Source of the DNA: a virus
DNA length: 23,387 nucleotides
IMG/VR virus record: IMGVR_UViG_3300025598_000187
Location: 1 to 23,387 of that record
Strand: one strand, 5' to 3'
The position numbers and the translations under genes are program-made. A model generated the notes under the pieces. It did not search any database, was not told where the DNA came from, and worked only from the letters and a program-made list of their open reading frames with translations. Positions 2,371 to 21,977 of the stretch are shown here, piece by piece (positions within the stretch are counted from its first letter, which is position 1; every line of letters starts with the position of its first letter).

Positions 2371-3873
2371 TTACTGTGTTTCTACAAGCTCCCAGTTGGC
2401 CATCTGAGCATCATTGATTGTAGACCAGCCCGGTGATTGTGTGTCGTTTATCGTTGTCCAAGACGCCGTTTGAGCATTGTTAATAACAGCCCAGCTCGCT
2501 GTCTGAGCATCGTTGATAAGTTGCCAATTTGCATTCTCGGAGTCATCTATAAGCTCCCAGTTAACAACCCCGAGTTTACCTAAAACTCCCGTAATAACCT
2601 GCCCAATTATGGCAGGTGCTACTGCCACTGACAAGCTGTTCACCGAGCCGGTTGCACTGACCGCAGTCAAAGACGCAACTTTACCGGGCGTAAGCGTACC
2701 AACCGATGTTGTACAAGTAACCCCGGACAGCCCAACACTAACGCTGTTCTTAAGAATACCAACAGTACCAATCGAAATCAGCCCGTTGTTGGACGTGCCC
2801 GTGACCGGCGGCAGCGCACCATACGCATACCCAGCAAACGTGTTCGCCCCAGTAACAAACTGCGGACTGATAATTGGGACCGTTGTACTCGGAGTCTGGG
2901 TTCCCGTAGAGCCAGTCGCTGTAATCGCCGTAAGCGGCGCACTCTCAGACTCAGAAGGTGTTACAGAATTAACCGAGGTTGTACTTGTAACCCCCGTAAT
3001 ACCGTATGCCTGAGTCGCTGTAATCGTGCCAGTCTGTGCCGTAGATGTAACGCCCGACAAAGCAATCGTGACACTCTTGGTTAACTGACCGCCAGTAACC
3101 TGCGCCGAAAGCCCAAGGTCTGCTACTTGGTTTGGAACCAGACTACCAAACGCAAAAGCCGCAAACGAATTAGCGCCTATAAACGTGGCAACTGGAATAA
3201 TCGGAACAAACAAATCAGGTGCAGCCGTGCCAACTGACCCTGTAGCCGATACCCCAGACAAGCCGCCCGGAACCACAGAAGACGTTACCGTCCCAACAAT
3301 CGTGGTACTCGTAACCCCAGAGATATTACCTGTGTCTAAGTCGGCCATGTTGCCGACAGATGTATTAGAAGTTACCCCACTAATACCAAACGAAATATTC
3401 GGCGTGACCGTGCCCAGAGACAACGTAGCTGTTGCCCCCGTTAGGGCATCCGAGTCCGAGTATGTAATCGTGCCCGTGGATGTGGTGCTGCTTACCGCTG
3501 AGAGAGCAGCCGATACAACCGGCGCAACCGACCCAACCGATGTAGTAGATGAAAGCGCAGATAGCTGAAAGACAAACCCAGCCGTGGGTGAATTAACCTG
3601 AGAAGTAGAGCTTACGCCAGATAGGGCAACCGACTGACCACTGTATGTGACCGAGTTAACCGATGTAGTGGATGTAACCCCCGACAGCGCAACAGACCGG
3701 CTGGGCGTTACCGAGTTAACTGATGTGGTACTTGTGACGCCAGACAGAGCCAGCGTTACGTTGGGGCTAACCGACCCAACCGAGGCAGTGGATGTTACGC
3801 CACTAACCGTTACGGCAAAGGTAGACTGTCTAGCAGCAAAGGGGGCCGCAGCAAATGCGGTAAAACCAAACAT
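2371..3873 (-). CDS. Repeat-built virion/fibre protein with 11-residue Trp repeats
   Basis: The 500-residue product is almost entirely repeats. Residues about 20-430 hold many copies of a roughly 20-residue unit of the type ALSGVTSTTSVNSVTP, likely short beta strands forming a fibre or Ig-like stack. Residues 438-500 switch to nearly six tandem 11-residue units of the pattern (N/S/G)Wx(L/T/V)INDAQxA, each with one Trp. The start MFGFTAFAAAPFAARQ is hydrophobic and Ala-rich but lacks a clear signal peptidase site. The ATG follows a GGGGGAG stretch. The gene lies 9 bp upstream of the fibre gene and 17 bp downstream of another virion gene, so a structural tail or fibre role is likely. Similar GVS(A/T)TGSVG and W..INDAQ repeat proteins are known to me only as uncharacterised phage proteins. 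Confidence 0.75.
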   Translation of the reverse strand: MFGFTAFAAAPFAARQSTFAVTVSGVTSTASVGSVSPNVTLALSGVTSTTSVNSVTPSRSVALSGVTSTTSVNSVTYSGQSVALSGVSSTSQVNSPTAGFVFQLSALSSTTSVGSVAPVVSAALSAVSSTTSTGTITYSDSDALTGATATLSLGTVTPNISFGISGVTSNTSVGNMADLDTGNISGVTSTTIVGTVTSSVVPGGLSGVSATGSVGTAAPDLFVPIIPVATFIGANSFAAFAFGSLVPNQVADLGLSAQVTGGQLTKSVTIALSGVTSTAQTGTITATQAYGITGVTSTTSVNSVTPSESESAPLTAITATGSTGTQTPSTTVPIISPQFVTGANTFAGYAYGALPPVTGTSNNGLISIGTVGILKNSVSVGLSGVTCTTSVGTLTPGKVASLTAVSATGSVNSLSVAVAPAIIGQVITGVLGKLGVVNWELIDDSENANWQLINDAQTASWAVINNAQTASWTTINDTQSPGWSTINDAQMANWELVETQ

Positions 3874-3890
3874 GGCTCCCCCTTAAAAAA

Positions 3891-4356: not shown

Positions 4357-4548
4357 TTAAGCCAACATTGCCTGTATGCCTTCGGCAACGATATTTTTCT
4401 TTAAAAGAACATGCACAGAACGATGCACAAGTTCCCCCTCTAACCAGTACTCAACCCACGTAGTGGTTTCGTTGTCATTATCCAACGAGCCTTCTTTTTT
4501 TTCAAGCAGAGAATCATCCATCTCGCCTTTGGTAGTAGTAACTAGCAT
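4357..4548 (-). CDS. Small acidic phage protein of oxygenase cassette (63 aa)
   Basis: The frame starts at the ATG at 4548 (MLVTTTKGEMDDSLLEKKEG), which shares its A with the TAA stop of the upstream gene (TAATG overlap). GGAG lies 6 bases before it. The product is acidic in its first half and carries TTTWVEYWLEGELVHRSVHVLLKK in its second half, a pattern consistent with one beta hairpin followed by a helix. It is the third gene of a coupled set behind the oxygenase gene. I recall similar small proteins in aquatic phages but know of no function. No membrane segment or metal motif is visible. Confidence 0.68.
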   Translation of the reverse strand: MLVTTTKGEMDDSLLEKKEGSLDNDNETTTWVEYWLEGELVHRSVHVLLKKNIVAEGIQAMLA

Positions 4549-4775
4549 TATTCGCTCCAAATGATTGCAGTTGATGTTTCTTTATCGATTGTCATTCGCC
4601 CTTTGCAAGCTATGCTCCAATCAACCCCGTCAGTCTCGTCCCAAACCGGAACACTAATTCTAATGTGTTTAAACAAGTATTCCTTGTTATTTTCAAACAC
4701 TCTCCACGCATGGTCAAGTGAGCCTCTGCCCGGCTGACCTCTGCTTTTGTTAAATCTTATCAAGTATCTATTCAT
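4548..4775 (-). CDS. Conserved small phage protein of oxygenase cassette (75 aa)
   Basis: MNRYLIRFNKSRGQPGRG begins at the ATG at 4775, which overlaps the TGA of the oxygenase gene by ATGA and is preceded by GAGGTGGT, so its translation is coupled to that gene. The middle carries SLDHAWRVFENNKEYLFKHI, and the C-terminus WSIACKGRMTIDKETSTAII looks beta-rich. One GTTTAAAC copy (4667-4674) falls inside the gene in the Phe-Lys reading. The tight coupling suggests that it works with the oxygenase, perhaps as substrate, chaperone or regulator; this is inference only. I cannot assign a family function. Confidence 0.7.
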   Translation of the reverse strand: MNRYLIRFNKSRGQPGRGSLDHAWRVFENNKEYLFKHIRISVPVWDETDGVDWSIACKGRMTIDKETSTAIIWSE

Positions 4776-5401
4776 ACCACCTCTGCCGATGTGACCAAGG
4801 TAGGCTCAACCGAAATGGTGAAATGAATAAACTTTATAGGCTCATCATTACCATGTCGTGTAAACGAGTGAGGAAGCCATGAACTTGCGAATATTAAGAG
4901 CCCGGGCTTTGGGGCAAAGGTGACCGCATTGCTGGCATGAGTAACCAAATTCATGTCGGCCTCAGGAAGATTAATTTGTTTCTTTCCGGGTCTTGGGTCA
5001 TGGATGGTTGGTACAGAACAGTTCTCTGGAGTCTCGAGAAAGTAAAACCCGACCAACTGAGCCGAGCCGCCATGAATATGTTCATCCATCCCTGAATGTT
5101 TGTAGTGCTCCTGACACCACATCTCATTGAAGACAGCACTAAGACCTGCCATTTGATAGCCTTGGCTTAACAAAATGTTCCAGCCAGTCGTACCTATAAA
5201 GCTGCAAAAGTCGTTTAAACGAGGGTCAAAATTAATGCTTTCCGTTTGGTAAACAGGATAGAGCTCATGTTTACTCTGCACCCTTTGCTTGCTCAGGTAC
5301 TCTTCGCAAACAGGCTTAACAACATCCAAGAACTCCGGCTTATCAATAGAATAGACCGCAGATGTGAAATAAAACCCTGTAGCCAGTTGCTCACCAGACA
5401 T
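4772..5401 (-). CDS. 2-oxoglutarate/Fe(II)-dependent oxygenase-like protein
   Basis: The 209-residue product has the jelly-roll signature of the putative 2OG-Fe(II) oxygenase family seen in many aquatic phages. H108 and H110 in DEHIHGGSAQLVGFYFLE, D135 in IHDPRPG, and H178 in LIFASSWLPHSF are the candidate metal ligands. A basic residue, K190, in EPIKFIHFTIS lies close to where the family has its 2-oxoglutarate-binding Arg or Lys. Known members use O2 and 2-oxoglutarate to hydroxylate a protein, nucleotide or small molecule; the substrate cannot be predicted here. The start ATG follows GGGAGA. The gene opens a three-gene coupled cassette and has its own upstream control region (5406-5430). 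Its position between two paralogous virion genes suggests either a self-contained inserted cassette or a modifier of virion proteins. Confidence 0.78.
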   Translation of the reverse strand: MSGEQLATGFYFTSAVYSIDKPEFLDVVKPVCEEYLSKQRVQSKHELYPVYQTESINFDPRLNDFCSFIGTTGWNILLSQGYQMAGLSAVFNEMWCQEHYKHSGMDEHIHGGSAQLVGFYFLETPENCSVPTIHDPRPGKKQINLPEADMNLVTHASNAVTFAPKPGLLIFASSWLPHSFTRHGNDEPIKFIHFTISVEPTLVTSAEVV

Positions 5402-5405
5402 AACA

Positions 5406-5430
5406 TCTCCCTATAAGAACGTTCGTATTA
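5406..5430 (-). promoter_or_regulatory. Promoter/operator-like element before oxygenase cassette
   Basis: On the minus strand this reads TAATACGA, then seven bases, then TATAGGGAGA, ending just before the oxygenase ATG. Both halves match the T7 RNA polymerase promoter, but T7 has five bases between them. The interior contains the 11-mer GAACGTTCGTA (plus strand, 5417-5427) that recurs twice upstream of the LexA-like gene. It could be a single-subunit phage polymerase promoter, an operator, or both. GGGAGA probably also serves as the ribosome binding site. Confidence 0.5.
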
Positions 5431-16179: not shown

Positions 16180-16575
16180 TTATTTGCGTTTAATGCCGCG
16201 AGGGTCATCTACGATGCCCTCAACAGAGTCATCATTGATAAGTCGGAACTCTCGTCCGTGAATAACAAGCCGTGAGCCTGTGTTTGGGCGGACCAAAATG
16301 AAGTCACCCTTCTTGCACCATGCGCCAGATGGGAACTTATTCTTGTCCACGTAGCAGTCTGGGCCTAAATCGACCACAAACAGAACCGTTGTCAGCAATT
16401 CATCGTAACGAATTGTGCTTTCGGCTTTGATAATCCCACTCTCGTACTCCTCTTCCACATCGGGAACCGCACAAAGTATGTGATAACCGCTTGGTTGGGG
16501 GAGTTGTTTCGCTTTTTCCTCTTGGTTTTTGTGCATCAGGGCAGATAAATCCACCGCTAGGCTTAAGTCAGTCAT
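16180..16575 (-). CDS. GroES-like co-chaperonin
   Basis: I start this gene at the ATG at 16575 (MTDLSLAVDLSALM, 131 aa) because GAGGA lies 5 bases before it; the longer frame uses TTG. The core resembles chaperonin-10: GYHILCAVPDVEEEY (30-44), a loop rich in charged residues where GroES has its GroEL-binding mobile loop (about 43-62), VLFVVDLGPDCYVD (64-77), and WCKKGDFILVRPNTGSRLVI (86-105). Phage co-chaperonins such as T4 gp31 replace GroES to fold the capsid protein; the location between portal and scaffold genes supports such a role. The N-terminal 28 residues extend beyond the usual fold. Stop and start overlap the neighbour by 8 bp. Confidence 0.72.
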   Translation of the reverse strand: MTDLSLAVDLSALMHKNQEEKAKQLPQPSGYHILCAVPDVEEEYESGIIKAESTIRYDELLTTVLFVVDLGPDCYVDKNKFPSGAWCKKGDFILVRPNTGSRLVIHGREFRLINDDSVEGIVDDPRGIKRK

Positions 16576-16762
16576 CCGATTCCTCAAATGTTTTCAGTAG
16601 GTCTTTGGTGTTTAAACGGGCGGTGAGAAGACCTTTTATCTCTCCGACCATCGCTCGGTATTCAGAATAGTCGGTGGCTTGTCCGTCCCCCAACGTTTCC
16701 TGAATTTGGGTAATGCGCTCATCAATCTTATTGACAAGCACATTTAAATATTTATCAATCAT
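16568..16762 (-). CDS. Small helical protein next to portal (64 aa)
   Basis: MIDKYLNVLVNKIDERITQI then QETLGDGQATDYSEYRAMVG and EIKGLLTARLNTKDLLKTFE gives a short two-helix protein. Its ATG overlaps the portal TGA (ATGA), so it is translated with the portal. I recall small proteins of the Y.....G.I.GL.......L.. type directly after portal genes in phages, without known function. One GTTTAAAC copy (16610-16617) encodes the Arg-Leu-Asn of ARLNTK. Confidence 0.7.
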   Translation of the reverse strand: MIDKYLNVLVNKIDERITQIQETLGDGQATDYSEYRAMVGEIKGLLTARLNTKDLLKTFEESDD

Positions 16763-19254
16763 TCTTCACCTTTATTTCCGCCATTGCTTTGCAGCAAGGA
16801 TTGAACACCAAGGTTTAAACGATTCTTATCTTGGTCATGTTTAATCTTGTCGCTCTCAAGCGCAGCCTTAACGCCAAGGTTTAAACGACTTTGGTTCTGT
16901 TCATGCTCCACCTGAGCGGCCGCCTTTTGCATGTCCAACTGCATACGAGCAGATTCTGTTTGCTGCTGAGCGGCAATGCGGTCTCGCTCGACCTGTATTT
17001 GAGCCATCTTGGCCTGTGTATCGGCTTGGTCTTTGGCAGACTTTCTTTGAATCTCTTGAGCTTGGAGCTGCAAGTCTTGCTGCTGCAATTGAAGCAGGGG
17101 GTCTTGCGCTTGCTGCTGAGCCTTTTGTTGAGCCGCTTGGGCTTGGTTTTCTTGCAGCAACTGCTGAGCCGCCTGAGCAATAAGACCAGAGAGCTGGAAC
17201 TCCAAGTTGGGGGGAAGCGGCTGATTGGGCTCTGGCAAAGATGTGCCGAGTTGCTTTTGGATTTCTTGACGGTAATGGAAGCCCAAGTGTTCCGCAATGT
17301 GCGCTTGCATCGCCGCTTGCATTTGCTGGAACTGCGGGTTTTGAGCCATTGTGCTCTGGGTATTGGGGTCCTGAAGGAAAGAGGTATGGACCGTGATATG
17401 GGCGTCATGGTCTTGGTCCATGAATGCCTTTAAGGGTTTACCCGTAATCACATTCATGTTTTCAGAGACTGGGTCGATTGGCATTTGGTCATCATCCAAA
17501 GGAACCAACTTCTTGGCGTTCTTGATGCCAAGAACTTCCAGCATCTGCCTATGGAGATAAGGCAAGTTATAGAGCTGAGGCGCTTGTTGCGCTAACTGGA
17601 GAACCGCCTGATACTGAACCACTCGCTGGGACATGGTTGCCGCATTTGGGTCTGACACGGGAATAACATCCACCATGTCGTAGTCGGCCTTCTTGGCAAA
17701 ACGGTCTTGCTCGATGGGGTCGTAGTCATACGAGTCGGGGGTGTAGTCCCGAATGATGTCCCGCAACAGGCGAAGCTCTTGCTTCAGTGAGTAATGCACC
17801 CGCGCTTGAATCGCGGTCATTGTTTTGAGGGTGCGCTCCAGAATTGCCAGCGTTGTTCCCACCGGCGAATTGGCAGACATGTCCGCAACTTGAATGTCGG
17901 CGGTGCTGGCAAACTGCTTGCCCTCATCAATAATCTTGTCTAACAAAGTAGCCAGAACTTGACTGGGTTCTTTGTAAGGAAGAGGTAAGAAGTTGTCTTT
18001 GATGGTCCCTGAAGTGACATCCACATCGCGCCACTCTGCGGGAGCGATTGGGGTGTCGTCCCCCTTTATTCGGAGGTTTCGAGATTTGAATCCGCCGGGC
18101 AGGTTTGCAAGACTTCCCGCATCCACGAGTTGTCGAAGGATGGAGGTCCCGGATTTAGCAAATGCTCCAATGAGATGGATAAGACCGAAGTAATAAAAAC
18201 CGAAGCCGGGGATGTATCCATAATGTACGAAGTGTTGTCGTTTCTTTTTGTTTTTGTCATCAGGTTTCCAATTCCTTCTAATTGCCAAACATTTATTGCT
18301 GCCCTTCTCGATGGTGATGAGATAGGGTAAAGCAATACCGGTTGGGTTTCCTTTTTTGTCTGTATCTTCAAATCCGGGCAAGTCCAAATCAACTTGCATT
18401 TCCAAAAGCTTATAGCGGTCATCGGTGGTGGCTTTGAACCCCATCTTTTCCGCTATCTTCTTTTCTACCTCATCGAGACTATTATTGGGTTCACCCAAAT
18501 CAATGTCCGCATAAAAGCCCATGACCTGTAAACGGCGAAGCTCGTTTTCGGTCTTGCGCATCACGTGGGTCACGCGAGGCGAGGTGTCCAAAGAGGAAGC
18601 ACCCCAAGGAACCACCACATCTTCAGCGGGAACAAATATAGAAATTTGCCGCTCGAGATGAGGGTCGTAGTATACCTTCTTAAACGCATTACCAGACAAA
18701 CCCAAGCCCCAAAGCATGCGCTCGGTCTCGGGGCGGAATTCGGTCATGACATCCACCAGTTGGTGGTTCATGTCGGCTTCCACGTTGGTGGCCGCATCTT
18801 TCTTCTCTGGGGTTTCTTTACCAATGATTTCGGTTTTTACCGGACCAGAGGCGGGAAAGATTTCCATGATGGTTTCGGCTTGGAACTTAACCAACGCTTC
18901 TGCCATGATGGGGTGATAGACACCACAAGCCCCCGGCCAAGGGTCGGTGCGGTCTTCCATCTTCAAGCCAAGGAGCTCTAATCCATCCACATAGGCTTGC
19001 ATCCAATCGCGGCGGGAGGTGACATCATCTTCGTAGTCCGAGATTAGGTCGCCCACAATCATGGCGATTTCACTGTCGCTTAATAGCTCTACGAGATTCT
19101 CATCAAAATCCTCTTCACCTTTCTCAAGGCTAATCTCCATATTGCCCGCATGGATGTGAACCGATTCGGGGTCTTCAATTTCAATCTCAATTGCAGGACC
19201 CTCTTCTAATCCTTCTAATCCAGAAGGTGCTTGGCTCAATGATTTAGAAAGCAT
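16759..19254 (-). CDS. Portal protein, P22-like
   Basis: The 831-residue protein sits directly downstream of the large terminase. Residues about 65-150 carry a helical start (LISDYEDDVTSRRDWMQAYV) and the portal-typical DPWPGACGVYHPIMAEALVK then FQAETIMEIFPASGPVKTEI. Further along come the clip/stem and crown regions. The last 140 residues (about 691-831) form a Gln-rich helical barrel-like extension, ending with a 22-residue duplication in which RLNLGV appears at 790-795 and 812-817. It forms the dodecameric ring through which DNA enters. AAGGA lies 5 bases before the ATG. Length matches long P22-type portals with a C-terminal barrel. Both copies of RLN use the codons CGT TTA AAC and so carry the dispersed palindrome. 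Confidence 0.88.
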   Translation of the reverse strand: MLSKSLSQAPSGLEGLEEGPAIEIEIEDPESVHIHAGNMEISLEKGEEDFDENLVELLSDSEIAMIVGDLISDYEDDVTSRRDWMQAYVDGLELLGLKMEDRTDPWPGACGVYHPIMAEALVKFQAETIMEIFPASGPVKTEIIGKETPEKKDAATNVEADMNHQLVDVMTEFRPETERMLWGLGLSGNAFKKVYYDPHLERQISIFVPAEDVVVPWGASSLDTSPRVTHVMRKTENELRRLQVMGFYADIDLGEPNNSLDEVEKKIAEKMGFKATTDDRYKLLEMQVDLDLPGFEDTDKKGNPTGIALPYLITIEKGSNKCLAIRRNWKPDDKNKKKRQHFVHYGYIPGFGFYYFGLIHLIGAFAKSGTSILRQLVDAGSLANLPGGFKSRNLRIKGDDTPIAPAEWRDVDVTSGTIKDNFLPLPYKEPSQVLATLLDKIIDEGKQFASTADIQVADMSANSPVGTTLAILERTLKTMTAIQARVHYSLKQELRLLRDIIRDYTPDSYDYDPIEQDRFAKKADYDMVDVIPVSDPNAATMSQRVVQYQAVLQLAQQAPQLYNLPYLHRQMLEVLGIKNAKKLVPLDDDQMPIDPVSENMNVITGKPLKAFMDQDHDAHITVHTSFLQDPNTQSTMAQNPQFQQMQAAMQAHIAEHLGFHYRQEIQKQLGTSLPEPNQPLPPNLEFQLSGLIAQAAQQLLQENQAQAAQQKAQQQAQDPLLQLQQQDLQLQAQEIQRKSAKDQADTQAKMAQIQVERDRIAAQQQTESARMQLDMQKAAAQVEHEQNQSRLNLGVKAALESDKIKHDQDKNRLNLGVQSLLQSNGGNKGEE

Positions 19255-19262
19255 ATCCGTCC

Positions 19263-20768
19263 TTAATAATAGGCAACCTTGCGGCGATAGTATTGCGGTT
19301 CATCTTCTTCATCGGTGTTTAAACGAATGAATCCGCCTTGACGGAATCTTAATAGGGCTTGAGAGCTTGAGTCAACCAAGTCATCATGGTCCCCATTGGG
19401 GAACGAGGCCAACTCTTCCATCAGCTCTTCAGCCCAGCGGGTCTCAGGACACCACACCATCCCAGAAGCAAATAAATCCGATATCGCGTTTACACGGGCA
19501 ATCTTATCATTTCCCTTGCTGGGTGTGTACTCTTGGAGCGGTATTCCTTGTTGGCGCATTTCATAAATCAAAGGAGCACCAGCCGCTTTCTTTTCAATAA
19601 TCAAACTGTCTGGATTCCATTCCTTATACATCTCAAAAGCTTTTCTCTTGAGCTCTGGAAACTCCATGCGGTCTTTGAATGCATCCAAAAGAATAATGTT
19701 GGCAACCTCATCCCCATTTGAGTTGGGATGCCTAAAGACGCCCCACGTTGTGCAAGCAGAGTAGTCGGCCCTGTTGTGCTTTTCAAAAGCGGTGTCCCAA
19801 GACTGAATGATGTACTCACAGCCGGGAGGATGCTCGCTCTCCCATATACGCCACATCTCTCGCTTAACAATCGCGCCCTCTTCTGAGGTGGGATTCTGTT
19901 GGTACTGAGCTTCCCACTTCCCAACGGGAAGTTCCGCCTTGATGGTGTCCAGTTCTTTCTTGGACCAGAACTCAGGCCACAGAGGAGTTCCACTTTCAAA
20001 CAAAGCAGGGAACTGAATAACCTCCCACTCATCTCCATCGCGCTTAATGGAGTTATTGATAATCTGACCGGTCAAGTCTCTCTTAGACCAACGGGTCATC
20101 ACAATGATAATGGCTCCTCCCGGTTGTAAGCGCTGACGAGGACCGGCGTTGTACCACTCAAACACTCGGTCATATACCGCAGGGTTTCCCATCATGGCTT
20201 CTTGTTCTGAATGCGGGTCATCAATAATTAATACATCCGCACCCTTACCAGTCACAGCGCCGCCAACACCGATAGCAAAGTAATCCCCGCCCTTGTTGGT
20301 ATTCCAACGTCCAGCGGCCTTTGAGTCGGTCGATAGCCGAGTGGTAAAGATAGCTTTGTAGTCGGGCGTATTAACCAAGTTACGCACCTTACGGCCAAAG
20401 CCAACCGCAAGCTCAGCGGTGTGGGCCGTTTGAATAATCTTTTTCTCAGGATACTTACCCAAGAACCAAGCCGGGAACAGATAAGAGGCAAACTCACTCT
20501 TCGTATGCCGGGGAGGCATATTGATAATAAGCCGCTTTAATTCTCCCTTAGCGACCCTCTCAAAAGCATCCGCCATGATTTCATGATGAGAGCCAGCAAT
20601 GAAAGAAGACCACATGGAGTTTACGAAAGGTATAAAGTTTTCTCTACACCTCTCTATCCTGTCAGCCCTAAGAAGCTTATGAATCTTCTCAATGTCCGGA
20701 TGCTTATCCGGAAGGAAGTCCAAAGTCTTTCGATAAGCCTTAAGCTCTTTCTCAGTCAACAAGGTCAT
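19263..20768 (-). CDS. terL: Terminase large subunit (packaging ATPase/nuclease)
   Basis: The 501-residue protein has the two-domain plan of large terminases. The ATPase part has a Walker A-like loop PPRHTKSE (85-92), Walker B VLIIDDP (179-185) followed by acidic residues, and a coupling motif VMTRW (223-227). The RNase H-like nuclease part starts with WDTAFEKHNRADYS (D325), includes IIEKKAAGAP (E392) and ends with HDDLVDSSS (D463/D466). It pumps DNA into the prohead through the portal and cuts concatemers. The ATG overlaps the stop of the LexA-like gene upstream (ATGA), unusual since the small terminase commonly takes that place. A GTTTAAAC copy (19317-19324) encodes RLN near the C-terminus. 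Confidence 0.93.
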   Translation of the reverse strand: MTLLTEKELKAYRKTLDFLPDKHPDIEKIHKLLRADRIERCRENFIPFVNSMWSSFIAGSHHEIMADAFERVAKGELKRLIINMPPRHTKSEFASYLFPAWFLGKYPEKKIIQTAHTAELAVGFGRKVRNLVNTPDYKAIFTTRLSTDSKAAGRWNTNKGGDYFAIGVGGAVTGKGADVLIIDDPHSEQEAMMGNPAVYDRVFEWYNAGPRQRLQPGGAIIIVMTRWSKRDLTGQIINNSIKRDGDEWEVIQFPALFESGTPLWPEFWSKKELDTIKAELPVGKWEAQYQQNPTSEEGAIVKREMWRIWESEHPPGCEYIIQSWDTAFEKHNRADYSACTTWGVFRHPNSNGDEVANIILLDAFKDRMEFPELKRKAFEMYKEWNPDSLIIEKKAAGAPLIYEMRQQGIPLQEYTPSKGNDKIARVNAISDLFASGMVWCPETRWAEELMEELASFPNGDHDDLVDSSSQALLRFRQGGFIRLNTDEEDEPQYYRRKVAYY

Positions 20769-21022
20769 AGCTTAACCATCTTGTTGACCGTCTTATCTTT
20801 AGGCTTACCCATCTTAATGCTCCTGAACTTATAAGGACTCACCTTGATGTAACCCTTCTCATGAAGCTCATGAACAATCCTGCAAATGTTTGACTTGCTC
20901 TTCAAACCAATACCACCCGCAATATCAACATAAGAAGGTGCAAAACCTTTAAGCTGCAAGTAAGCCTTAATGAACTCCAAAACATTCTTCTGTCGTTCCG
21001 TCAACTCTTTATTTTCTGACAT
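20765..21022 (-). CDS. LexA-type winged-helix DNA-binding protein without protease
   Basis: The ATG at 21022 (MSENKELTERQKNVLEFIKA, 85 aa) follows GGGGTGG with about 8 bases of spacing; a GTG at 21031 is an alternative. LTERQ, then GFAPSYVDIAGGIGLKSKSN and ICRIVHELHEKGYIKV match the N-terminal winged helix of LexA (helix-turn-helix about 26-48, wing about 55-68). The S24 self-cleavage domain of LexA is absent, so it cannot be inactivated that way. It overlaps terL by ATGA. Just upstream is a 12-bp palindrome ACGAACGTTCGT (21045-21056), whose GAAC/GTTC halves recall Gram-positive SOS boxes in composition but lack their spacer, so autoregulation is likely. It might instead act in DNA packaging, taking part in pac recognition. 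Confidence 0.75.
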   Translation of the reverse strand: MSENKELTERQKNVLEFIKAYLQLKGFAPSYVDIAGGIGLKSKSNICRIVHELHEKGYIKVSPYKFRSIKMGKPKDKTVNKMVKL

Positions 21023-21044
21023 ATATACCACCCCATGTTTTAAA

Positions 21045-21056
21045 ACGAACGTTCGT
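21045..21056. promoter_or_regulatory. 12-bp palindromic operator candidate
   Basis: ACGAACGTTCGT is a perfect palindrome 23 bp before the LexA-like start codon. It contains the 11-mer GAACGTTCGTA (21047-21057) and overlaps GTTTTAAAAC. Its position suits an operator or promoter for the LexA-like gene and terL. Confidence 0.55.
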
Positions 21057-21123
21057 ATGGGGGGTAATTCTGTACAAATGTTTAAACGATGTCAACAAAA
21101 AAATGAGGAGGGGGAGGGGGTGA

Positions 21124-21134
21124 GAACGTTCGTA
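21124..21134. promoter_or_regulatory. Second upstream copy of GAACGTTCGTA
   Basis: An exact copy of the 11-mer lies 77 bp from the copy at 21047-21057. Chance expectation for an 11-mer repeat in a sequence this long is about 0.01 per site. A third copy at 5417-5427 precedes the oxygenase cassette. Confidence 0.5.
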
Positions 21135-21175
21135 ATGGGTAGGGGAAGTGATGGGATGTGGGAAATAGAGCGTTA

Positions 21176-21265
21176 GGCATTCCTCCAGAGGAGGGCCCGA
21201 ATCGGTCGGGTGGGGGGTGGCAGGGTCGGGATAATCCCAATCGATTATGCCGTACCCCGAATGCC
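21176..21265. other. Nested hairpin domain, possible packaging site or ncRNA
   Basis: GGCATTC (21176-21182) and GAATGCC (21259-21265) are complementary and enclose CTCC-AGA-type, CCCGA-ATCGG-TCGGG (21196-21210) and ATAATC-CCAATC-GATTAT (21231-21248) hairpins plus the G-tract series. No canonical tRNA arms are present. Strand of activity is unknown. Confidence 0.4.
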
Positions 21266-21272
21266 AAATCGT

Positions 21273-21977
21273 TTAAACGGCCTGCGCAGATGAATCGCCA
21301 TTATCGGTTGGAGTCGAGCGCTTGATTATCTTCAATGACGCTTTCATCTTGGCGGTGTTGAATGACTGTATATGACCATCGAGCTCACGTTTGAGTTTGT
21401 CTGAATCAATCTCTTCAATCTTTGATTCAACTCTATCGGTGAACATACCGATTGCTTTACCCATTAGCTCCAGAGCCTTTAAACGGTCGCCAAGCCTGTT
21501 TGTTTCATTATCCGCATGCTTGAGTAGGTCTCCCATAATCTTGCGTCTAGCGGCCACTTGGTCGTCAACTATGTTTTCTTTTACAGAGTCCCAGACAGAC
21601 TCCATTAATCCACTTATCCGCCCATCCTTCATCAGTTTGTTCGCATTACCCTGAATCACTGCCTCGTTGGTGGTTCTTACATCGTAGGCTTTTTTGTAGG
21701 CTTCCTTAGGTGAATGTCCCTGAGCCACCAAAGAGCTGAACAATCTCATCTTTGGAGTAATCCTTTTGTCCTCTCTATTCTTTACACCATATACCTTTCC
21801 ATTCTTTGTTTTCTTTTCTCTTACTTTTGCAACAGCTATCCGCATCGCTTCGCTGATTTCATTCGAGGAATCCCCCGCCTTACCATTGCGTTCGTCATTA
21901 TCCACACCAGCATCACCATGCGGCTCGTTTAAACCCTCTTGAGGCTCTTCAAATGCTTCGTTTGGCTCTTTAATCAT
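21273..21977 (-). CDS. terS: Terminase small subunit
   Basis: The 234-residue product has an acidic, disordered N-terminus (about 1-45), then a helix-turn-helix-like core (ITPKMRLFSSLVAQGHSPKE then AYKKAYDVRTTNEAVIQGNA, about 73-112), followed by an amphipathic oligomerisation helix region (DQVAARRKIMGDLLKHADNE, LKALELMGKAIGMFTDRVES). This is the plan of small terminases, which bind the packaging site and recruit the large subunit. AAGGG lies about 7 bases before the ATG. It is the first gene of the leftward operon. A GTTTAAAC copy overlaps its stop codon (GTT TAA AC), and another lies near the start in EGLNEP. Confidence 0.75.
   Translation of the reverse strand: MIKEPNEAFEEPQEGLNEPHGDAGVDNDERNGKAGDSSNEISEAMRIAVAKVREKKTKNGKVYGVKNREDKRITPKMRLFSSLVAQGHSPKEAYKKAYDVRTTNEAVIQGNANKLMKDGRISGLMESVWDSVKENIVDDQVAARRKIMGDLLKHADNETNRLGDRLKALELMGKAIGMFTDRVESKIEEIDSDKLKRELDGHIQSFNTAKMKASLKIIKRSTPTDNGDSSAQAV

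Follow-up and report, generated by a model that had tools for sequence, protein, structure and literature searches.

A putative packaging-initiation site and a predicted late promoter in the gap beside the small terminase gene of uncultivated tailed phages

Sites at which phage terminases begin packaging have been described in a few well-studied systems. Among headful phages, the pac site of P22 lies inside terS, the gene for the small terminase subunit, while the pacL and pacR sites of SPP1 are located around it. The cosB/cosQ region of lambda, next to the terminase genes, contains repeated recognition boxes at helical spacing. A different type of DNA element is the operator of Gram-positive-type LexA repressors, GAAC-N4-GTTC. 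Few phages have a known packaging site, and such sites can seldom be predicted from sequence.

The locus described here belongs to the window, a stretch of 23,387 nucleotides that was analysed as a whole and forms part of a tailed-phage record. In it terS, a LexA-type gene and terL, which encodes the large terminase subunit, all occupy the minus strand, and genes for the portal, a GroES-like protein and the major head protein, together with other ORFs, lie 3' of terL on that strand. The nearest isolates by TerL (51-57%) are the HTVC023P-type pelagiphages (HTVC023P, HTVC027P) and phage DSL-LC04. GroES is part of the core genome of HTVC023P-type phages (PMC9599517), and the structural operon of the window likewise holds a GroES-like co-chaperonin gene (16180-16587). 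HTVC027P also resembles the window in having GTTTAAAC, an 8-nt palindrome, before TAAAAT upstream of terL; in HTVC027P and 023Pt_psg01, however, terS is on the opposite strand.

The original prediction singled out a 241-nt structured, non-coding stretch between terS and terL as a candidate pac or cos site, or an origin. Such a gap indeed exists between long minus-strand ORFs, at 21032-21272, or from 21023 if the LexA-type gene begins at its likely start, the ATG at 21022. It adjoins terS, but an 88-aa gene with a LexA_DNA_bind match, whose frame overlaps terL, separates it from the latter. The palindromes, the purine tract (about 21097-21126) and the GGCATTC/GAATGCC arms (21259-21265 and 21176-21182) that had been pointed out are all present. 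The features of the locus are given below; the motifs termed R, A and B and those of the promoter are all read on the minus strand, which is the late-gene strand.

19263-20768, minus strand: terL, large terminase subunit, 501 aa (PHROG 38, E 1.3e-108; Terminase_6C)
20765-21031, minus strand: 88-aa LexA-type DNA-binding protein, first gene of the late operon (Pfam PF01726, E 3.7e-16)
21028-21064, minus strand: C-run (21059-21064) and G-run (21028-21034), a possible 5'-leader pairing over the ribosome-binding site
21045-21056, both strands: putative operator palindrome ACGAACGTTCGT over the predicted start region
21067-21072, minus strand: predicted -10 hexamer CAGAAT, from the promoter scan
21080-21087, both strands: GTTTAAAC in the promoter spacer, kept in relatives
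21090-21095, minus strand: predicted -35 hexamer TTGACA, from the promoter scan, with the same layout in relatives
21097-21126, plus strand: purine-rich tract (C-rich on the late-gene strand)
21124-21133, minus strand: block B, a putative upstream operator copy, ACGAACGTTC, from the A-to-B spacing in relatives
21148-21175, minus strand: block A, here TAACGCTCTATTTCCCACATCCCATCAC, family form TACACTSTAWTCCACACATCCCATCACC, from an HMM match (E 2.7e-5), the family alignment and the exact core
21176-21265, both strands: hairpin stretch closed by GGCATTC/GAATGCC, overlapping R and the R-A spacer; fold not conserved
21204-21227, minus strand: block R, here GACCCTGCCACCCCCCACCCGACC, family form GACCCCACC-N4-CCC-N-ACCCCC, from a position weight matrix, a loose pattern and the family alignment
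21271-21278, both strands: GTTTAAAC containing the terS stop codon (GTT TAA AC)
21273-21977, minus strand: terS, small terminase subunit, 234 aa (PHROG 51 terminase small subunit, E 1.8e-9)

Block R is composed of two C-rich boxes 11 nt apart, and its copy in the window has diverged. A weight matrix spanning R and A, which was derived from loci carrying the R pattern even though the window's own R fails that exact pattern, gives its best window score of 28.9 at 21227-21154; the next separate place reaches 16.7, and 20 Markov windows do not exceed 13.7. A looser R pattern has one match in the window and one match in each of 13 of 22 long records, some of which may be incomplete, versus zero in the reversed control. 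Block B is an imperfect repeat: ACGAACGTTCGT at 21045-21056 has a near copy at 21124-21134.

Comparison across relatives establishes the blocks as conserved, fixed in their geometry and linked to the terminase genes over two gene orders, with the proviso that many of the loci counted below are related and are not independent events. Scans of IMG/VR with terS and terL gave 31 and 80 loci, respectively; the pieces are fragments, and their ORFs and terS genes were called with simple rules together with iterated HMMs. Three contigs match the gap at 98-100% identity; in other relatives the similarity is no more than patchy. Wherever the LexA-type helix-turn-helix (HTH) gene could be placed, it lies close upstream of terL and mostly abuts it. 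Of 54 loci with both block A and terS, 53 have the block 78-247 nt past the terS stop; the exception is L015, where the terS frame appears to read past it. This distance is kept even with the HTH gene as far off as 1.4-1.8 kb (L049, L076). In IMG/VR the exact core of A is present in 16 contigs; of these, 14 carry terS upstream and two begin within the gap. Block R, upstream of A, was revealed by aligning 46 loci chosen without reference to it, and its pattern is present in at least about 120 IMG/VR stretches. Conservation of R in the set selected by this pattern arises by construction; its linkage to terminase genes, block A and the R-to-A spacing do not. Among the matches listed, 107 of 119 R loci have terS nearby, 53 with terS before R and 54 with R before terS, and terL was detected in 103 of these terS-bearing loci, each time downstream and on the same strand; the encoded proteins share 46.8-81% identity with the TerL of the window. 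No terS was called in the remaining 12; one of these (L169) has terL 948 nt downstream in the full record, and in four (L162, L167, L198, L242) the contig ends just after R. As a separate observation, about 1 kb of DNA interrupts terL after residue 88 in two relatives (L008, ~4407-5425; L018, ~2858-3879), possibly an intron or another insert.

The spacing within the element is similarly constrained. Among the matches listed, the spacer inside R is 4 nt in 93 of 110 loci, and R and A are separated by 50-55 nt in 86 of 91, even though A was not in the query. The DNA between R and A is nearly random in sequence, and in 40 of 41 loci A and B lie 45-47 or 62-63 nt apart. Neither blastn nor inspection by eye found a clear R-A element in the nearest cultured relatives, though the C-rich R may be masked by the low-complexity filter of BLAST.

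The relation of the site to coding sequence is variable. Among the matches listed, the terS frame enters or crosses R in 30 of 107 loci and stops before it in 23, while R comes first in 54, of which 37 have no long ORF over R. Where the frame passes through R-A (L145, L146, L161, L199, L240 and others), the blocks encode DPTxxPP and HTIPxxxS at the TerS C-terminus. A conserved TerS C-terminus was considered as an account of R-A and rejected, as the element lies outside the terS frame in 77 of these 107 listed loci. Since the site is outside terS in 77 and inside its frame in 30, it is explained by neither coding nor any one mRNA leader. Where site and frame coincide, R-A is a single DNA site with a coding constraint and probably also a binding one. 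The statement that nothing coding explains the gap is true of the window, but some relatives have a terS whose end the site overlaps.

Could the gap instead act as RNA? The hairpins, taken as a terminator, a processing site or a leader RNA, do stand out in this one sequence: the hairpin part folds better than its shuffles (z -3.3 on the minus strand and -2.6 on the plus strand). None of 100 shuffles produced an exact inverted repeat as long as the 11 nt found in the gap. Yet the homologous stretch folded in about 35 relatives gave no conserved fold, with values scattered around z = 0, so that the hairpins originally highlighted are not a trait of the family. A conservation test of the gap, which had been suggested as a check, returned the sequence over the hairpins only in the three near-identical contigs, while the short blocks are kept in relatives. 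There is also no Rfam match and no terminator-like site in the scan, and a structured RNA is accordingly a reading to which we assign next to no probability. With the site kept in all gene contexts and no conserved fold, R-A is best read, judging from its position and sequence, as double-stranded DNA. A further pairing candidate, the C-run/G-run element C4-N-G4NTATAT, appears once per record in 8 of 18 records, on the terL strand and with a variable loop; it was discarded as a cos nick site, because its loop measures anywhere between 0 and about 30 nt and it was mostly not found where R precedes terS.

Much of the gap is a predicted promoter/operator of the late operon, a function absent from those first proposed. 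A sigma-70-type promoter, TTGACA-17-CAGAAT, is predicted at 21095-21067 on the minus strand with GTTTAAAC in its spacer, its hexamers falling within the 16-18 nt spacing of this class. The promoter scan by itself is at chance (1 found, 0.7 expected), and support comes from the same promoter and operator layout in relatives. Within the window, GAACGTTC directly follows a promoter-like pair in a second, independent case, TAGACA-17-CATAAT-AC-GAACGTTC at 5417 (5417-5424), before the ORF at 4772-5401. Overall, GAACGTTC is located just downstream of such a pair in 10 distinct places versus 0.76 expected, several of them homologous copies, and in some distant relatives CGAAC-N4-GTTCG precedes the HTH gene. 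At the position of the purine tract, C-rich DNA is usual in relatives, but its sequence is variable. HTVC027P encodes no RNA polymerase and uses that of its host (PMC12753301), a dependence that fits host-type promoters.

The 88-aa product of the first gene matches LexA DNA-binding domains in Pfam and PDB. The C-terminal autoproteolytic (S24) domain is absent, the protein being 88 aa long with a Pfam match only over residues 8-70, and it is therefore a LexA-type DNA-binding protein rather than a LexA. It resembles the LexA repressor in its DNA-binding domain and in the GAAC/GTTC half-sites at its own promoter, which take the N4 form in some relatives; it differs in lacking a peptidase domain and in that the half-sites abut (GAACGTTC) in the window's group. 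The distal half of the gap would serve as the promoter of the late operon, which comprises the HTH gene, terL, portal and the genes beyond; a LexA-type palindrome over the start region would be its operator, to which the protein encoded by the first gene probably binds. Binding of the HTH protein to GAACGTTC and the direction of regulation are both predictions from sequence. Autoregulation of the late operon by this protein is likely, given a LexA-type operator by the promoter and the matches to LexA DNA-binding domains.

The palindrome GTTTAAAC had been viewed as flanking the gap. Its two copies are present, but one (21080-21087) is inside the gap and the other (21271-21278) holds the terS stop codon. 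Nor is it peculiar to the gap: the window contains 15 copies between 4667 and 22157 versus 0.44 expected, making it the joint commonest 8-mer, in coding and non-coding DNA alike. In 490 kb of relatives it is the commonest 8-mer (367 copies), with 16-47 copies in each of 12 long records against 0-3 in the reversed control, and its genome-wide dispersal led us to reject it as a component specific to this site. The copies share no evident longer consensus. At the C-terminus of the portal protein (window 16813-16886), RLNLGV occurs twice, each time encoded over a GTTTAAAC. Among the more distant isolates examined, the terL regions contain few copies of the palindrome or none, as do most R-bearing loci whose TerL is more diverged. 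In its dispersal far above expectation it recalls the HIP1-type highly iterated palindromes of cyanobacteria, from which it differs in sequence and in being enriched in the phages rather than in the one candidate host genome. That genome, a Burkholderiales MAG holding a relative and a candidate host only, contains 68 copies versus 109 of the reversed control, so that in this one genome the palindrome does not show the enrichment of a host palindrome.

What, then, does R-A-B do? The element lies in or beside the terminase genes, occurs in single copy per record and is conserved as DNA independently of coding. A DNA element that keeps to the terminase genes in each of their orders is most economically read as initiating packaging, and a pac/cosB-like site is the best explanation of its function. 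R-A-B would be recognised as double-stranded DNA, most likely by the small terminase; TerS would bind R-A, and this recognition would choose the point on the phage DNA from which packaging starts. The pac/cos proposal thus gains a conserved multi-block element, one per record and terminase-linked in more than 100 phages irrespective of gene order, although the hairpins and flanking GTTTAAAC on which it relied are not the conserved features.

The main rival is that R-A-B belongs wholly to late-operon control, its blocks being activator or antiterminator sites that act on the downstream promoter with no role in packaging. It holds this rank because R invariably precedes terL on the strand of that gene, an arrangement that would look alike under either explanation; moreover, many relatives have a promoter after A and B, and B is the same palindrome as the operator. 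However, the distance from A to the promoter varies widely while the R-A-B spacing does not, and R can fall inside the terS frame. Where a promoter is seen, R-A lies upstream of it and would therefore not be in that transcript. We regard wholly regulatory blocks as unlikely, though still a serious contender.

Two further readings concern the ends and the replication of the genome. R-A could mark a fixed end, either cos or a terminal-repeat boundary, with cleavage at or beside the site. It adjoins the terminase genes, the best PDB match of TerL is T7 gp19, albeit a weak one, and contigs end within 200 nt after R in 6 of 119 of the matches listed versus 2.6 expected, a mild excess. Nearly all contigs nonetheless assemble straight through the site, and their end positions differ, some falling in poly-C or repeats as assembly breaks would give. 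No position common to contig ends was found at the site, where metagenome contigs can bridge a cos in concatemers, and a fixed end seems improbable. Alternatively, R-A could be a replication origin or part of one, with R and B as iteron-like boxes and A containing a DnaA-box-like core (TAATCCACA / TTTTGCACA) that in many relatives differs from a DnaA box at one position. GC skew, another of the suggested checks, did place the gap at the window's extreme, with the cumulative minimum in the bin that holds it; the turn in skew also coincides, however, with a change of gene direction near 22.2 kb. Only a single DnaA-like box is present, the flanks of A are conserved beyond it, and it is the terminase genes to which the site is linked. 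Packaging and late-operon control are both likelier than an origin, which we consider very improbable.

Read as a packaging-initiation site, R-A-B shares with the P22 and SPP1 pac sites the character of a multi-box DNA site in or beside terS and upstream of terL, overlapping the terS frame in 30 relatives among the matches listed. It differs in its three blocks with set spacing and in having terS on either side; its sequence is, to our knowledge, unrelated to theirs. With lambda cosB/cosQ it has in common boxes at helical spacing beside the terminase genes, but no nick site or cohesive end was identified at R-A-B, and contigs run through it. The literature on these motifs yielded nothing relevant.

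Taken as a whole, the gap is somewhat more probably than otherwise a composite cis-acting region, in which the terS-proximal half would carry the R-A-B packaging-initiation site and the distal half the late promoter and operator. Whether R-A-B represents a new class of packaging-initiation site is a more evenly balanced matter. Such a class would consist of two C-rich boxes one helical turn apart and a block about five turns on, with a LexA-type palindrome at a set distance in the window's group; it would be anchored upstream of terL, with terS on either side or reading through, and would be common to a very large group of uncultivated phages. For this large group, which is known almost solely from metagenomes, a motif with set spacing provides a testable packaging site and a marker of genome orientation. 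The locus is also a model case in which a bare LexA-type DNA-binding domain may control a late promoter.
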